This document shows, piece after piece, positions 53,661-57,540 of a stretch of DNA of 57,540 nucleotides. The notes under the pieces were generated by a model, which was not told the DNA's origin, did not search any database, and saw nothing but the letters and a program-made list of their open reading frames with translations. The translations under genes were made by a program, and so were the position numbers. This DNA comes from Spirochaetota bacterium (lineage in GTDB: Bacteria; Spirochaetota; UBA4802; UBA5550), in contig QKCL01000012.1 in NCBI GenBank assembly GCA_003246895.1, positions 1 through 57,540 of the forward strand. The letters run 5' to 3'. Position 1 is the first letter of the stretch. Every line of letters starts with the position of its first letter.

Positions 53661-53983
53661 CTGAACTTTTTAAAGTATCACCACGGATCGCACGGATATT
53701 CACGGATGAGTTAGGTTGAAAGTTTACACCGGCTCGTGTTTCTTTCAGTTGTTCCTGAATTTATCCCTCTCCATCCCTGACAGGGGTATGTGAACATTGT
53801 ATATAGTCCATGATCTGATACTCTGTCATCCCCGTCTTGACCGGGGATTCATTACAGGGGGAGTATCAGTTACCTGGATTCCAATGAGGTTGGGAATGAC
53901 AGTGATTCTTTATTTATCCGTGTAAATCTTTTCCATCCGTGGTTTAAAAATTCCCTTGTTTTTTGAATATGTGAAGGAGAGAA
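53661..53983. repeat. Array block A: L element, long spacer, R element
   Basis: L at 53661-53708 contains three CACGGAT half-sites after a TTTTTAAAGTATCACC lead. R at 53911-53983 contains two ATCCGTG half-sites 12 bp apart, then TTTAAAAATTCCC and GTGAAGGAGAGA as the start of the tail. The spacer is about 200 bp and is related to that of block D. The next gene follows the R tail directly. Confidence 0.9.
53823..53902. repeat. Nested REP-like double hairpin, copy 1
   Basis: CTGTCATCCCCG...CCGGGGATT forms one hairpin and GGATTCC...GGGAATGACAG another, with the outer ends CTGTCAT and ATGACAG complementary. The pattern is like the CTGTCATTCCC type of repeats scattered in many genomes. It lies inside the spacer of block A. 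Confidence 0.75.
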
Positions 53984-54157
53984 TCAACCGGGTGTATTTA
54001 AATAGCAGGTCCAGGCTCCTGTACTTCTGTTTAACTCAGTATAGGCCGTGGGTGACATCGTTTTTAACTGAAATGATGATCTCCTGCAAAACAAGGATTG
54101 ACTTATATATGCATGGATCTGTATATGAAGCAGAAGCTATTTAAAGAGAGAGAAAAG

Positions 54158-55063
54158 ATGAAACAGATAACCTTTGAAGATATCGAGAAAGCATTATTAA
54201 AAATTGAGAAGGAAGAAAAAAACAGCAGTAATTTTCTTGAAGATGAATTCCACAAGAGACAGCCTGTACTCTTTGATTTCCTGATCCAGCCGGAAGACTT
54301 GAATGACGATGAAAATGACCTGCTTATCGACATTGTCGAAACAGGGTGGTATATAATTAAAAGCGCCCTCAAGAGAGATATTGAAGTAAGTGAAGAATAT
54401 CTCTTTGAAATGTCAGAGCGGAATATGGCTGATTCAATGATAATGTTATCGGAAGAATCCAGTGATGAGGATGAGGGCCGTCTGGATGAGTTTATGCAAC
54501 GGTACAACGGACAGCCGGTTCTCATGAATTTACTAATGGATTCCATTGAGGGATATATTGAAGAAGCCGGAGATTCCCTGAGGCCGGAAATAATACCGAA
54601 TGTGGTCAATGATTTAAAGACTGCCATGGACTGCCTGCTTATTGATGAAGAGGATGCACTGAAGGAGAACTGTGAAGGGGATTACTCCCAGGACAGCTTC
54701 AACAATGTCCAGAGTGATACAAAGAGATATCTGGATGAATTTAAAAAAACTGAACGATATATGAAGCTCAGCCACGATGCAAAAGATGAGTCTGAATTAG
54801 TAGTGAATGCTTTCAGCGAAATAATGTATAATTCTTTTCTCATGGTACCCCGCAACTGGAACGGAAGAAGAACAGTTGAATGCTGTCTTGACATTCTGCC
54901 GAACAAGGTAATGGCAGGAGAGAAGTTCTACGCAGCACTTGTCCCGGTCCTTGAAGCCTTCATGCTTTTCTGTCATGAAAAGGGCTATGTCCCGGAAGGG
55001 GAACATATCGCATGGAGACTGAAAAACATTGAGGACCAGATCGCAGAGGAATTTAATAATTAA
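54158..55063 (+). CDS. Acidic hypothetical protein, array cargo
   Basis: 301 residues, acidic and largely helical, with no signal peptide or membrane segment. I do not recognise a family. The motif NWNGRRTVECCLDILP and the C-terminal region VPVLEAFMLFCHEKGYVPEGEH are the only Cys-bearing parts. ATG 54158 has AGAGAGA upstream; the in-frame ATG 54098 overlaps repeat-flank DNA. It is flanked by tail copies of the repeat at both ends, which suggests insertion into, or capture by, the array. Confidence 0.7.
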   Translation: MKQITFEDIEKALLKIEKEEKNSSNFLEDEFHKRQPVLFDFLIQPEDLNDDENDLLIDIVETGWYIIKSALKRDIEVSEEYLFEMSERNMADSMIMLSEESSDEDEGRLDEFMQRYNGQPVLMNLLMDSIEGYIEEAGDSLRPEIIPNVVNDLKTAMDCLLIDEEDALKENCEGDYSQDSFNNVQSDTKRYLDEFKKTERYMKLSHDAKDESELVVNAFSEIMYNSFLMVPRNWNGRRTVECCLDILPNKVMAGEKFYAALVPVLEAFMLFCHEKGYVPEGEHIAWRLKNIEDQIAEEFNN

Positions 55064-55089: not shown

Positions 55090-55390
55090 TGAAGGAGAGA
55101 CGCAATCGGGGAAATCGCAGAACCTGTTCCGGACCTGAACTTTTTTAAAGTATCACCACGGATCGCACGGATATTCACGGATGAATATGATAGTTGGGTT
55201 AAAGAATTACTTAAAACATAATCTTTTCTTTATCCGTGTAAATCTTTCCTATCCGTGGTTTAAAAATTCCTTTGTTTTTTAAATATGTGAAGGATAGAAA
55301 CAATTTAGGCAACGTGAGAATACGGTTCCGGTCATTGACATTTTAAAATATCACCACGGATTGCACGGATTGCACGGATATTCACGGATG
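55090..55390. repeat. Array block B-C: tail, L, short spacer, R, tail, L
   Basis: A tail copy (55090-55132, GAAGGAGAGACGCAATCG) precedes L (55133-55183), a short AT-rich spacer, R (about 55229-55300), another tail and L (55341-55390). The last L has one extra ATTGCACGG unit. 55166-55269 is identical over 104 bp to 57162-57265 in block F. Confidence 0.9.
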
Positions 55391-55483: not shown

Positions 55484-55675
55484 ATGAGAACAACAATTGA
55501 TATTCCTGAGAATCTTATAGATGAAGCAATGAAGCTGACTCATATCTCCACAAAAACAGATGTAATAAAGGTCGCATTGACAAATCTCATACAGAAAGAG
55601 AAAGTTAAAGCCTTAAAAAAGTTTGAGGGTAAAATTAATCTGAATATAAATCTGGATGAATTAAGAAAACGATGA
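55484..55675 (+). CDS. vapB: VapB-type antitoxin
   Basis: 63 residues. MRTTIDIPENLIDEAM is the ribbon-helix-helix start of the DUF2191/VapB family, followed by the helix STKTDVIKVALTNLIQKEK and a C-terminal tail that would occupy the toxin active site. AGGAAG precedes the ATG, and the start overlaps the toxin gene as ATGA. It neutralises VapC and represses the operon, probably through the palindrome upstream. Confidence 0.92.
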   Translation: MRTTIDIPENLIDEAMKLTHISTKTDVIKVALTNLIQKEKVKALKKFEGKINLNINLDELRKR

Positions 55676-56058
55676 ACCAGATTCTTGTAGATTCATCGGT
55701 GTGGATTGATTTTTTCAAAGGGTCGGAGAATATAAATTCTGAATTCTTCCATGAGTGTATCGATAATAATCTGATCTGCATCAATGATTTAATCCTGGCA
55801 GAGCTGGTGCCTTTTCTTGAGCATAAAAAGGAATTTGAGGTCATCGATATTTTAAAATCAGTGAATCGAATTCCTCTGGTCATAGACTGGGATGAAATAA
55901 TTCAGTACCAGTCCCTGAACCTTAAAAAGGGTGTGAACAGGGTTGGAATACCTGACCTCATTCTACTCCAGAATGCGGTAAATAATAATCTGAAGTTATA
56001 TACTCTCGACAGGCATTTTAAACTGATGAAAAAATTTATCGGTATTGATCTGGTTTAA
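55672..56058 (+). CDS. vapC: VapC-type PIN-domain ribonuclease toxin
   Basis: 128 residues of the PIN domain. The acidic residues that hold the metal are in place: Asp7 (ILVDSSVWIDFF), Glu44 (LAEL), Asp95 (IPDLI) and Asp113 (TLDRHF). VapC toxins cut tRNA or rRNA when the antitoxin is lost. Translation is coupled to vapB by the 4-bp overlap. The cassette lies between L elements of the repeat array. Confidence 0.93.
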   Translation: MNQILVDSSVWIDFFKGSENINSEFFHECIDNNLICINDLILAELVPFLEHKKEFEVIDILKSVNRIPLVIDWDEIIQYQSLNLKKGVNRVGIPDLILLQNAVNNNLKLYTLDRHFKLMKKFIGIDLV

Positions 56059-56071
56059 TATCAGTTCCGGA

Positions 56072-56503
56072 CAAGAACTTTTTAAAAGCATCACCACGGA
56101 TCACAGGGATATTCACGGATGGGTTAGGTTGAGAGTTACCCCGGCTCGTGTTTCTTTCAGTTATTCATGAATTTATCCCTCGCCACCCTGACAGGGTTTG
56201 CGAACATTGTATATAGTCCATGACCTGATACTCTGCCATACCCAGACTATACTCTGTCATCCCCGGCTGCGACCGGGGATCCATGTTTCAGGCAATTATA
56301 TTATGTATATTATTGATTCCCAATGAGGTTGGGAATGACAGTGATTCTTTACTTATCCGTGTAAATCTTTTCTATCCGTGGTTTAAAATTCCTTTGTTTT
56401 TTGAATATGTGAAGGAGAGAAGCAATCGTTACAATCTCAGGATTCGGTTGAGGCCCTGAATTTTTTAAAGTATCACCACGGATTGCACGGATATTCACGG
56501 ATT
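56072..56503. repeat. Array block D-E: L, long spacer, R, tail, L
   Basis: L (56072-56121, with a degenerate middle half-site), a long spacer like that of block A, R (56352-56430), tail, and L (56455-56503). In R, ATCCGTG 56355-56361 and ATCCGTGGT from 56374 are 12 bp apart. In the following L, ACCACGGAT 56475-56483 and CACGGAT 56496-56502 are also 12 bp apart, so R and L can pair as a long hairpin. Confidence 0.9.
56254..56341. repeat. Nested REP-like double hairpin, copy 2
   Basis: Same design as the copy at 53823: CTGTCATCCCCG with CCGGGGAT, then ATTCCCAATGAGGTTGGGAAT, outer ends CTGTCAT and ATGACAG. The first part is preceded by a partial duplicate CTGCCATACCC at 56233. Confidence 0.7.
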
Positions 56504-56518
56504 GATATTCTAATTTTA

Positions 56519-56809
56519 TTACATCCTGTCTACCCAGTAATAGGGCTTCTGGTGAGTATGAGCAAAAGCGATTATATAGACTGTTTCATCGTAAAGGTGA
56601 TAAACTATTTTATATGGGAAGCTGCTGAGTAAGACTCTCCGCGTTTCCTTTGTCTCCTGCTGCCAGGCATCGGGATATTTTTTTATACGTTCTATTGCCT
56701 TTCTGAAATCACTTTCCAGTTTTGAACCTAAGCCTGGGAAACGAAGATTGTAATAATCAACGGCATCACTGTATTCATAATATGCGGGGAGTAAGAATTC
56801 GACATTCAT
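56519..56809 (-). CDS. RelE/ParE-family toxin
   Basis: 96 residues of the RelE/ParE fold: FLLPAYYEYSDAVDYYNLRFP, GSKLESDFRKAIERIKKYPDAW, TRRVLLSSFPYKIVYHL and the C-terminal FAHTHQKPYYW. ParE members poison DNA gyrase and RelE members cut mRNA; the sequence does not decide which. It follows its antitoxin gene by 8 bp. The stop lies 16 bp from an L repeat element. Confidence 0.9.
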   Translation of the reverse strand: MNVEFLLPAYYEYSDAVDYYNLRFPGLGSKLESDFRKAIERIKKYPDAWQQETKETRRVLLSSFPYKIVYHLYDETVYIIAFAHTHQKPYYWVDRM

Positions 56810-56817
56810 GGGAAATG

Positions 56818-57006
56818 CTATTTGTAGGGAATTGTTTTAATTTTACCTTCGTGAAGAGCTTTAACCCGTTTATCAATCTCTTCTGCCCAGATCTGTTCCA
56901 TTGTCTGATTCGGTTCATCAAGACTTTTAAGAAGGCCGTCTACGAGAAGGCTCTTTTCATTGGGTGGCAGGTTTAATGCTTCTTTCAACAGGTCCTGTGC
57001 TTTCAT
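56818..57006 (-). CDS. Addiction-module antitoxin, PF09720-type
   Basis: 62 residues. NLPPNEKSLLVDGLLKSLDEP with WAEEIDKRVKALHEGKIKTI matches the unstable antitoxin family (putative addiction module component) that accompanies ParE/RelE toxins. AAGAGG lies upstream of the ATG, and a near-consensus promoter is 18 bp further. It precedes the toxin gene, as usual. Confidence 0.9.
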   Translation of the reverse strand: MKAQDLLKEALNLPPNEKSLLVDGLLKSLDEPNQTMEQIWAEEIDKRVKALHEGKIKTIPYK

Positions 57007-57131: not shown

Positions 57132-57375
57132 GTTGAACTTTTAAAATATCACCAGGGATCACACGGATATTCACGGATGAATATGATAGTTGGGTTAAAG
57201 AATTACTTAAAACATAATCTTTTCTTTATCCGTGTAAATCTTTCCTATCCGTGGTTTAAAAATTCTTTTGTTTTTTAATCTGTGAAGGCGAGAAGCAATT
57301 GCGGTAATGTGAGAATCCGGTTGAGGCCCTGAATTTTTTAAAATATCACCACGGATTGCACGGATATTCACGGAT
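57132..57375. repeat. Array block F-G: L, short spacer, R, tail, L
   Basis: L (57132-57179), the short spacer identical to block B, R (57224-57300), tail, and L (57327-57375). The last L is followed at once by ATTTTTAAAGTAT, a second copy of the L lead, which contains the stop codon of the next gene. Confidence 0.9.
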
Positions 57376-57379
57376 ATTT

Positions 57380-57540
57380 TTAAAGTATAATTCTCTCAAT
57401 CTGGACTTTGGGATAAGAACCGAAATTAATAATCAGCCCAAGCTTTAAGCTGGTTACTTTTAGATAATTTATAAGTTGGGCACGATGGACAGGAAGAATG
57501 TTGTTTTGTACTTTTAATTCAATGATTATGCTGTCATAGC
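57380..57540 (-). CDS. GxxExxY-family protein, C-terminal part
   Basis: The last 52 residues of a gene that starts beyond the window edge. IIIELKV, HRAQLINYLKV and LKLGLIINFGS are the hallmark of the GxxExxY family (PD-(D/E)xK nuclease superfamily 3), where the E-x-K of IELK is part of the nuclease motif. The family is often multi-copy in environmental genomes. The stop is 5 bp from an L repeat. The N-terminal GxxExxY motif is outside the window. Confidence 0.85.
   Translation of the reverse strand, partial: YDSIIIELKVQNNILPVHRAQLINYLKVTSLKLGLIINFGSYPKVQIERIIL

Follow-up and report, generated by a model that had tools for sequence, protein, structure and literature searches.

Inverted heptamer arrays at the end of a Spirochaetota contig

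We analysed 57,540 nt of DNA from a Spirochaetota bacterium (GCA_003246895.1, contig QKCL01000012.1; hereafter the window), concentrating on two inverted repeats, R and L, and on the gene of the GxxExxY family that lies near them. R (56355-56382, minus strand; ATCCGTG-N12-ATCCGTGGT) and L (56475-56502, plus strand; ACCACGGAT-N12-CACGGAT) stand 92 nt apart and are 79% complementary over 28 nt, confirming the inverted pair that an earlier, sequence-only reading had reported here. The complementary TTTAAAA flanks of that reading are likewise present as TTTAAA-type sequence beside both arms. The pattern ATCCGTG-N{0,30}-ATCCGTG occurs 17 times in the window, compared with 0 occurrences in 100 dinucleotide shuffles, and 17 exact 12-nt-spaced pairs were found in the 3.57-Mb assembly (contigs C7, C21, C31, C71, C86 and C91).

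The basic unit of both arms is the heptamer CACGGAT, set in arrays that are inverted relative to each other. L consists of three exact copies (CACGGAT-2-CACGGAT-3-CACGGAT), while R has two copies around a decayed middle heptamer (AAAAGAT on the other strand), with gaps of 2 and 3 nt in the same register as in L. The equal 12-nt spacing between half-sites therefore holds in both arms but is really 2+7+3, since each N12 contains one heptamer plus two gaps; the third heptamer of L had been missed. The 92-nt tail between the arms (56383-56474) recurs in the genome's other R-tail-L blocks, with a mean column identity of 90% in a four-row alignment.

The interval from 53.7 kb to 57.4 kb of the window contains nine further arrays of the L or R type; here the arms occur apart or with other spacers. 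Copies of L (53680-53707, plus strand) and R (53916-53943, minus strand) are followed by a gene-less L-49 nt-R unit with L at 55155-55182 (plus) and R at 55232-55259 (minus). Next come an L copy with four heptamers (55353-55389, plus) and one whose middle heptamer reads CAGGGAT (56093-56120, plus). In the L copy at 57151-57178 (plus) the first heptamer is now CAGGGAT; it is followed by an R copy at 57228-57255 (minus), and the surrounding sequence (57139-57278) is 97% identical to 55143-55282. The last array, an L at 57348-57375 (plus), lies 4 bp past the stop codon of the GxxExxY gene, an inverted, downstream placement typical of the family.

This gene (57380-57538, minus strand) is cut by the contig end, leaving the C-terminal 52 amino acids of a GxxExxY (PDDEXK_3) protein (TIGR04256, 7e-16; PF13366, 1.2e-14). 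The truncated open reading frame (ORF) still passes the curated scores of both models (58.6 against 35 bits and 55.1 against 22 bits, respectively). The source genome has two more GxxExxY genes, on C16 and C21, whose arrays are spelled CACAGAT and CACGGAG, respectively. Toxin-antitoxin genes lie as cargo between the window's arrays: a VapB antitoxin (55484-55675, plus; PF09957, 2.6e-15) with a VapC PIN toxin (55672-56058, plus; PF01850, 1.2e-11; NF047959 below its cut-off), and a PF09720-type antitoxin (56818-57006, minus; 4.8e-14). The 96-amino-acid ORF adjoining the latter (56519-56809, minus) has no family match; by resemblance it is probably the RelE/ParE-type toxin partner. A 321-amino-acid ORF at 54098-55063, without a match in Pfam, NCBIfam or PADLOC, is flanked by tail halves in the interval that separates the first R from the L after it.

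Heptamer arrays flank GxxExxY genes in many phyla

GxxExxY proteins were found in 68 of 296 sampled genomes of the source phylum, and at these loci tandem heptamers of many spellings stand at the ends of the gene. Genomes with arrays of three spellings hold GxxExxY in 30 of 44 cases, compared with 38 of 252 genomes without them. Their general form is two to four tandem heptamers C[AG]CNNA[GT], 1-3 nt apart. We then used a scan of GTDB genomes, retaining the best 80 of 576 confirmed GxxExxY loci; these cover many bacterial phyla and one archaeon and are biased towards the query's branch. Under a looser C[AG]C rule, an array lies within 150 nt on at least one side in 75 of the 80 loci, compared with 2 of 30 PIN loci used as a control. 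Strict triples within 150 nt were present upstream in 39 of 77 cases and downstream in 43 of 78, against 16 of 1844 control blocks from the same loci and none in shuffled sequence. Upstream arrays ran forward in 31 cases and in reverse in 5, downstream arrays in reverse in 29 and forward in 8, with 10 ambiguous.

Pooling the loci gave 135 distinct genes, after removal of copies with fewer than about 100 matched positions, of those with stops or X, and of identical proteins. An array in the expected orientation is present on at least one side of 110 genes and on both sides of 66; control blocks have one in 17 of 1842 per orientation. The two ends also match each other. Among the 21 loci with strict triples on both sides, 16 show one and the same consensus heptamer at either end (after shuffling, mean 4.0 and maximum 11) and 20 the same gap pattern (10,000 shuffles: mean 6.7, maximum 16). 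These matched ends are the general form of the equal spacing first noticed in R and L, and they fit terminal repeats read by one protein. At some loci (L127, L132, L163 and others) one array mixes spellings, for example CGCAAAG beside CGCAGAG, which hints at ongoing decay or relaxed specificity. At three others (L258, L259 and L263, in G235, G267 and G116, respectively) long palindromes (AACAAACGGATTTGTTC..., GTAGCTAACGCTAC...) stand on both sides of GxxExxY and heptamer arrays are absent.

Residues of the predicted first helix covary with heptamer bases

We next compared the proteins with the spelling of their arrays, leaving out the 25 of 135 genes that had no array call. Protein distance correlates with heptamer spelling (Mantel r 0.42, N=110). 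The correlation persists for cross-phylum pairs under permutation within phyla, which we assigned from record titles (Mantel r 0.27, p 2e-4, N=68 genes of the 80-locus set).

The covariation can be followed to single residues, numbered as in L068. Of 43 genes with threonine at residue 7, 42 have G at base 5, and all 12 with alanine have A, serine being mixed (29 A, 17 G). Glutamate at residue 8 accompanies G at base 5 (34 of 35), lysine or arginine A (23 of 25), and asparagine at residue 4 accompanies A at base 4 (53 of 65). When independent contrasts were drawn on a tree from which the first 30 residues had been left out, concordant cases outnumbered discordant ones by 11:0 for residue 7 (10 unchanged), 11:0 for residue 8 (4 unchanged), 10:1 for residue 4 (3 unchanged) and 4:0 for residue 16 (6 unchanged). 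Among 61 control tests made with residues 31-120, the lowest p was 0.016. Among further genes (16 of 39 with C[AG]C arrays), residue 7 T coincides with G at base 5 in 9 of 9 and residue 8 E in 8 of 8. We propose from these alignments a code in which T at residue 7 would specify G at base 5, residue 8 would specify G as E and A as K or R, and N at residue 4 would specify A at base 4.

The covarying residues sit in the first helix of the predicted structure (AlphaFold2, pLDDT 93.9, pTM 0.87). Judged by this model, GxxExxY is a member of the PD-(D/E)XK superfamily and a predicted nuclease. Its best fold match in the PDB is SSO0001, a Cas4 protein (E 1.4e-4, Z 10.3 over 99 residues), followed by exonuclease- and restriction-enzyme-like folds, a list of families that is not exhaustive. 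A sequence search turned up no relative of known structure (best E 0.11). An invariant D and an invariant E-x-K are present in alignments A1 and A2; the latter uses 36 of the 44 sequences first tried, some having been left out as a precaution after stop codons.

Array-ended units are absent from some sites and repeated at others

The clearest family of copies was found in genome G127, which contains five copies of 482-500 bp with little content other than GxxExxY, 90-97% identical and in unrelated flanks; a sixth copy shares their ends but measures 260 bp owing to an internal deletion. The 9-bp sequences on the two sides match at 9, 8, 8 and 7 of 9 positions in four of the six copies, compared with at most 5 in cross-pairs.

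Occupied and empty sites were compared at the hisG-hisB interval, searched in 118 genomes of one genus (29 loci read, both flanks in 26). Among the 26 species, seven intervals measure 484-743 bp, 15 are nearly empty at 21-101 bp and four are intermediate; all seven long loci carry GxxExxY sequence at the same spot (17 sequences inspected). CACAGAT and CACAGAG units occupy this same intergenic site in different species. In L226 and L230, a remnant of a CACAGAG array (TTCTGTGCTCTCTGTGAGG) adjoins the CACAGAT unit, which looks like the trace of one unit replacing another or inserting into it.

A unit with CACCGAT arrays in G100 is absent from G220 contig C502 and from G029, and its ends recur, with dozens of matches, elsewhere in G100, G178 and G220. 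Larger cargo occurs as well: in G220 a 5.6-kb segment between inverted CACGGAT arrays encodes an SNF2-type helicase, an AAA ATPase and a 336-amino-acid protein matching defence models, and contig C502 is empty at that place, with the caveat that the two G220 contigs could stem from two strains. We did not count the 9-base overlap at this insert, degenerate by eye, as a duplication. Exact insertion points were not obtained for C[AG]C-type units, the hisG-hisB flanks being too diverged and the G100 junction containing two N. Together, the empty sites and the G127 family, as read from genome comparisons, support the arrays as putative ends of moving units. Beside the G100 GxxExxY gene (L208) lie about 450 bp with an array and coding-like sequence (PIN-like by eye), missing from the 95%-identical G178 locus (L209).

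Carriage on phages or plasmids was rejected: tblastn with one query matched 0 of 50,697 phage records and 8 of 72,556 plasmid records.

A predicted nuclease and its probable cognate ends

We think it probable that R and L mark the termini of small DNA units that are, or at least once were, mobile and that the GxxExxY nuclease binds the arrays and promotes movement. In the mechanism that we propose, heptamer arrays placed inverted at the two ends of a unit would be the cognate sites of this minimal Cas4/RecB-fold PD-(D/E)XK nuclease, whose gene is normally flanked by them. The nuclease would bind the arrays, probably as a multimer that occupies the repeated half-sites, and would cut at or near them; bases 4-5 of the heptamer would be recognised by residues of the first helix. 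Cutting would promote the movement or copying of whatever two arrays enclose, be it the nuclease's own gene, gene-less units resembling miniature inverted-repeat transposable elements (MITEs; here the short L-R and R-tail-L units), or toxin-antitoxin and defence cargo. Independent lines of evidence give good support to recognition of the arrays by their cognate GxxExxY protein; multimer binding, cutting, and movement by GxxExxY rather than by another recombinase we infer. That GxxExxY would itself perform the movement is suggested by analogy with RAYT/REPIN pairs. The window's R-tail-L block is a gene-less member of this array-ended class. A broader proposition has, in our estimation, about an even chance of being right: that a bacteria-wide class of selfish DNA is moved by a lone PD-(D/E)XK nuclease of about 120 amino acids, which would read tandem heptamers by an amino acid-base code, seed gene-less repeat pairs and carry toxin-antitoxin or defence cargo.

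Several observations weigh against this picture. No GxxExxY match was found in 14 of the 44 genomes with arrays, and 0 of 30 CACGGAT loci hold a GxxExxY ORF in their approximately 3 kb. Genome G273 has 31 CACAGAG triples, yet CACAGAT is the spelling on either side of the nuclease at its hisG locus. Arrays in the wrong orientation occur upstream of 26 and downstream of 29 of the 135 genes. Of the weaker family matches (39 of 40 fetched loci examined), only 16 have C[AG]C arrays and 21 have any triple, and some have palindromes instead. The link of residue 25 to base 7 rests on one branch and a single contrast, and we dropped this residue as independent evidence for a code position; the five F25 genes of the further set have T at base 7 in three cases and A in two, and F25 genes often bear arrays of a different, GAT-ending kind, for example ACAGGAT or TTAGGAT. 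The cleanest case of mobility belongs to a variant branch, because the G127 copies lack C[AG]C arrays and have instead terminal repeats of their own (CTGACWTCTACCCACA) with GAT-type arrays in subterminal position, and two of the six lack a duplication (5 and 3 of 9). Finally, the empty sites and duplications were all read outside the window, whose own nuclease is missing its N-terminus.

Some of these points would suit array ends moved by another recombinase, with GxxExxY a passenger or a factor that only regulates or protects the element. Array genomes without the nuclease and the mismatched arrays of G273 fit such an arrangement, as does the bounding of other cargo by arrays, for example the helicase and ATPase genes of the G220 insert; arrays may persist after the loss of their enzyme, or may be moved by a different one. 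Duplications of 9 bp are usual for DDE transposases, so those of G127 again allow for another enzyme moving the units, and no PD-(D/E)XK protein alone is known to carry out transposition. A passenger, however, should not covary base by base with array spelling, nor be array-flanked in 75 of 80 loci across many phyla, and in G127 the only terminal-repeat pairs seen at 0-1 mismatch are those of the GxxExxY copies and of the deleted form derived from them. We consider another recombinase unlikely on this balance, though deserving of attention. It is improbable that the arrays are operators through which a toxin or defence nuclease regulates itself, spread by host recombination between repeats. 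Upstream arrays often stop a few nt before the GxxExxY ORF, and residue-base covariation suits any DNA-binding role. Yet inverted arrays are as frequent downstream as upstream (89 vs 87 of 135), dozens of matching ends lie elsewhere in G100, G178 and G220, and an operator does not account for empty sites and duplications.

The sequence-only reading had ascribed the equal spacing to selection on a structure or on a dimeric protein site. A site for a multimeric protein is supported by the matched end gaps and spellings and by the residue covariation. Selection of R-tail-L as a hairpin of RNA or single-stranded DNA we hold to be very improbable, although the block folds better than shuffles as RNA (z = -2.46; any inverted repeat would tend to do so) and REPINs, the nearest analogue, are predicted in the cited part of PMC3116915 to form hairpins in single-stranded DNA or mRNA. 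The covariation check proposed with the earlier reading showed no compensatory change, but none of 20 arm pairs varies among the four aligned R-tail-L copies, of which three lie in the window and the fourth on contig C71, leaving the check uninformative. Arms also occur singly, loops enclosing a whole gene vary widely, and a scan of the window against Rfam at the gathering threshold matched only RNase P (81-434) and nothing at R or L. If one protein reads both arms as ends, their identity is accounted for; a hairpin of single-stranded DNA may still occur as an intermediate. Hardly credible is a chromosomal integron with gene cassettes between attC sites. Toxin-antitoxin genes do lie between the repeats, but the 95.7% complete assembly has no integron integrase above the TIGR02249 cut-off, the cassettes lie in both orientations, and the attC core, GTTRRRY, was not seen at unit ends.

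Comparison with known systems

The closest parallel is the RAYT (TnpA-REP)/REPIN system, in which one chromosomal enzyme gene is tied to a short repeat with which it co-evolves, according to the cited parts of PMC3116915 and PMC8266576, and the repeat also occurs in many gene-less inverted doublets. The R-tail-L and short L-R units are likewise gene-less inverted doublets around a short spacer. In contrast, RAYT is an HUH/Y1 enzyme acting on palindromic REPs, whereas here a PD-(D/E)XK nuclease would act on a non-palindromic tandem heptamer. Two Y1_Tnp genes (PF01797) are present in the source genome, on C88 and C50, with no array in those approximately 3-kb loci, and RAYT was set aside as unlinked to the arrays.

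Short gene-less units with inverted ends also recall MITEs, as does the internally deleted 260-bp copy in G127; the units have inverted ends, and putative target duplications were seen at copies of the G127 variant. The difference is that no parent element bearing these ends was seen. A review of MITEs (PMC10969869) makes no mention of GxxExxY, heptamer or nuclease. Rpn/YhgA proteins (PF04754) are also PD-(D/E)XK nucleases, for which a part in helping DNA to move has been proposed, and one of their paralogs seems inserted repeatedly at one place; they belong to another Pfam family, RpnA shows little sequence specificity, and cognate repeat arrays are not mentioned in the cited part of PMC5350276. 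GxxExxY has only about 120 amino acids, although its closest fold match is the Cas4-like SSO0001. A GxxExxY domain has been described beside a CRISPR-like reverse transcriptase, in a passage of PMC8934634 that says nothing on repeats. The TAACTGA repeats of Beggiatoaceae are intergenic tandem heptamers found in several phyla, but the cited part of PMC4679880 describes one spelling, in direct orientation just before start codons, with no linked nuclease.

In the open literature searched, which misses most subscription journals, we found no description of the array-nuclease partnership and no match to the array spellings. The partnership of tandem heptamers and GxxExxY thus appears, from its distribution in sequenced genomes, to be widespread but apparently undescribed. 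GxxExxY has been an annotation of unknown function and its repeats have lain scattered between genes; once protein and repeats are connected, the former has a substrate and the latter have a cause, both testable together. If the proposed mechanism is true, DNA would have a new way of becoming mobile, through a PD-(D/E)XK enzyme whose site is built of modular tandem heptamers, the covarying residues would offer a possible programmable DNA-binding module, and there would be a reason why toxin-antitoxin and defence genes lie between such repeats.

Other repeats near the arrays

A second, unrelated interspersed repeat, made of CCCCG...CGGGG / TTCCCAATGAGGTTGGGAATGACA palindromes, occurs within L-R units of the window (53820-53900 and 56255-56340) and also adjoins the R-tail-L block on C71. 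In the source genome, a minisatellite with a 21-nt unit (ATTCATGGTCGAGAGCATCAG) follows the CACAGAT-type GxxExxY locus at the end of contig C16 (L182).
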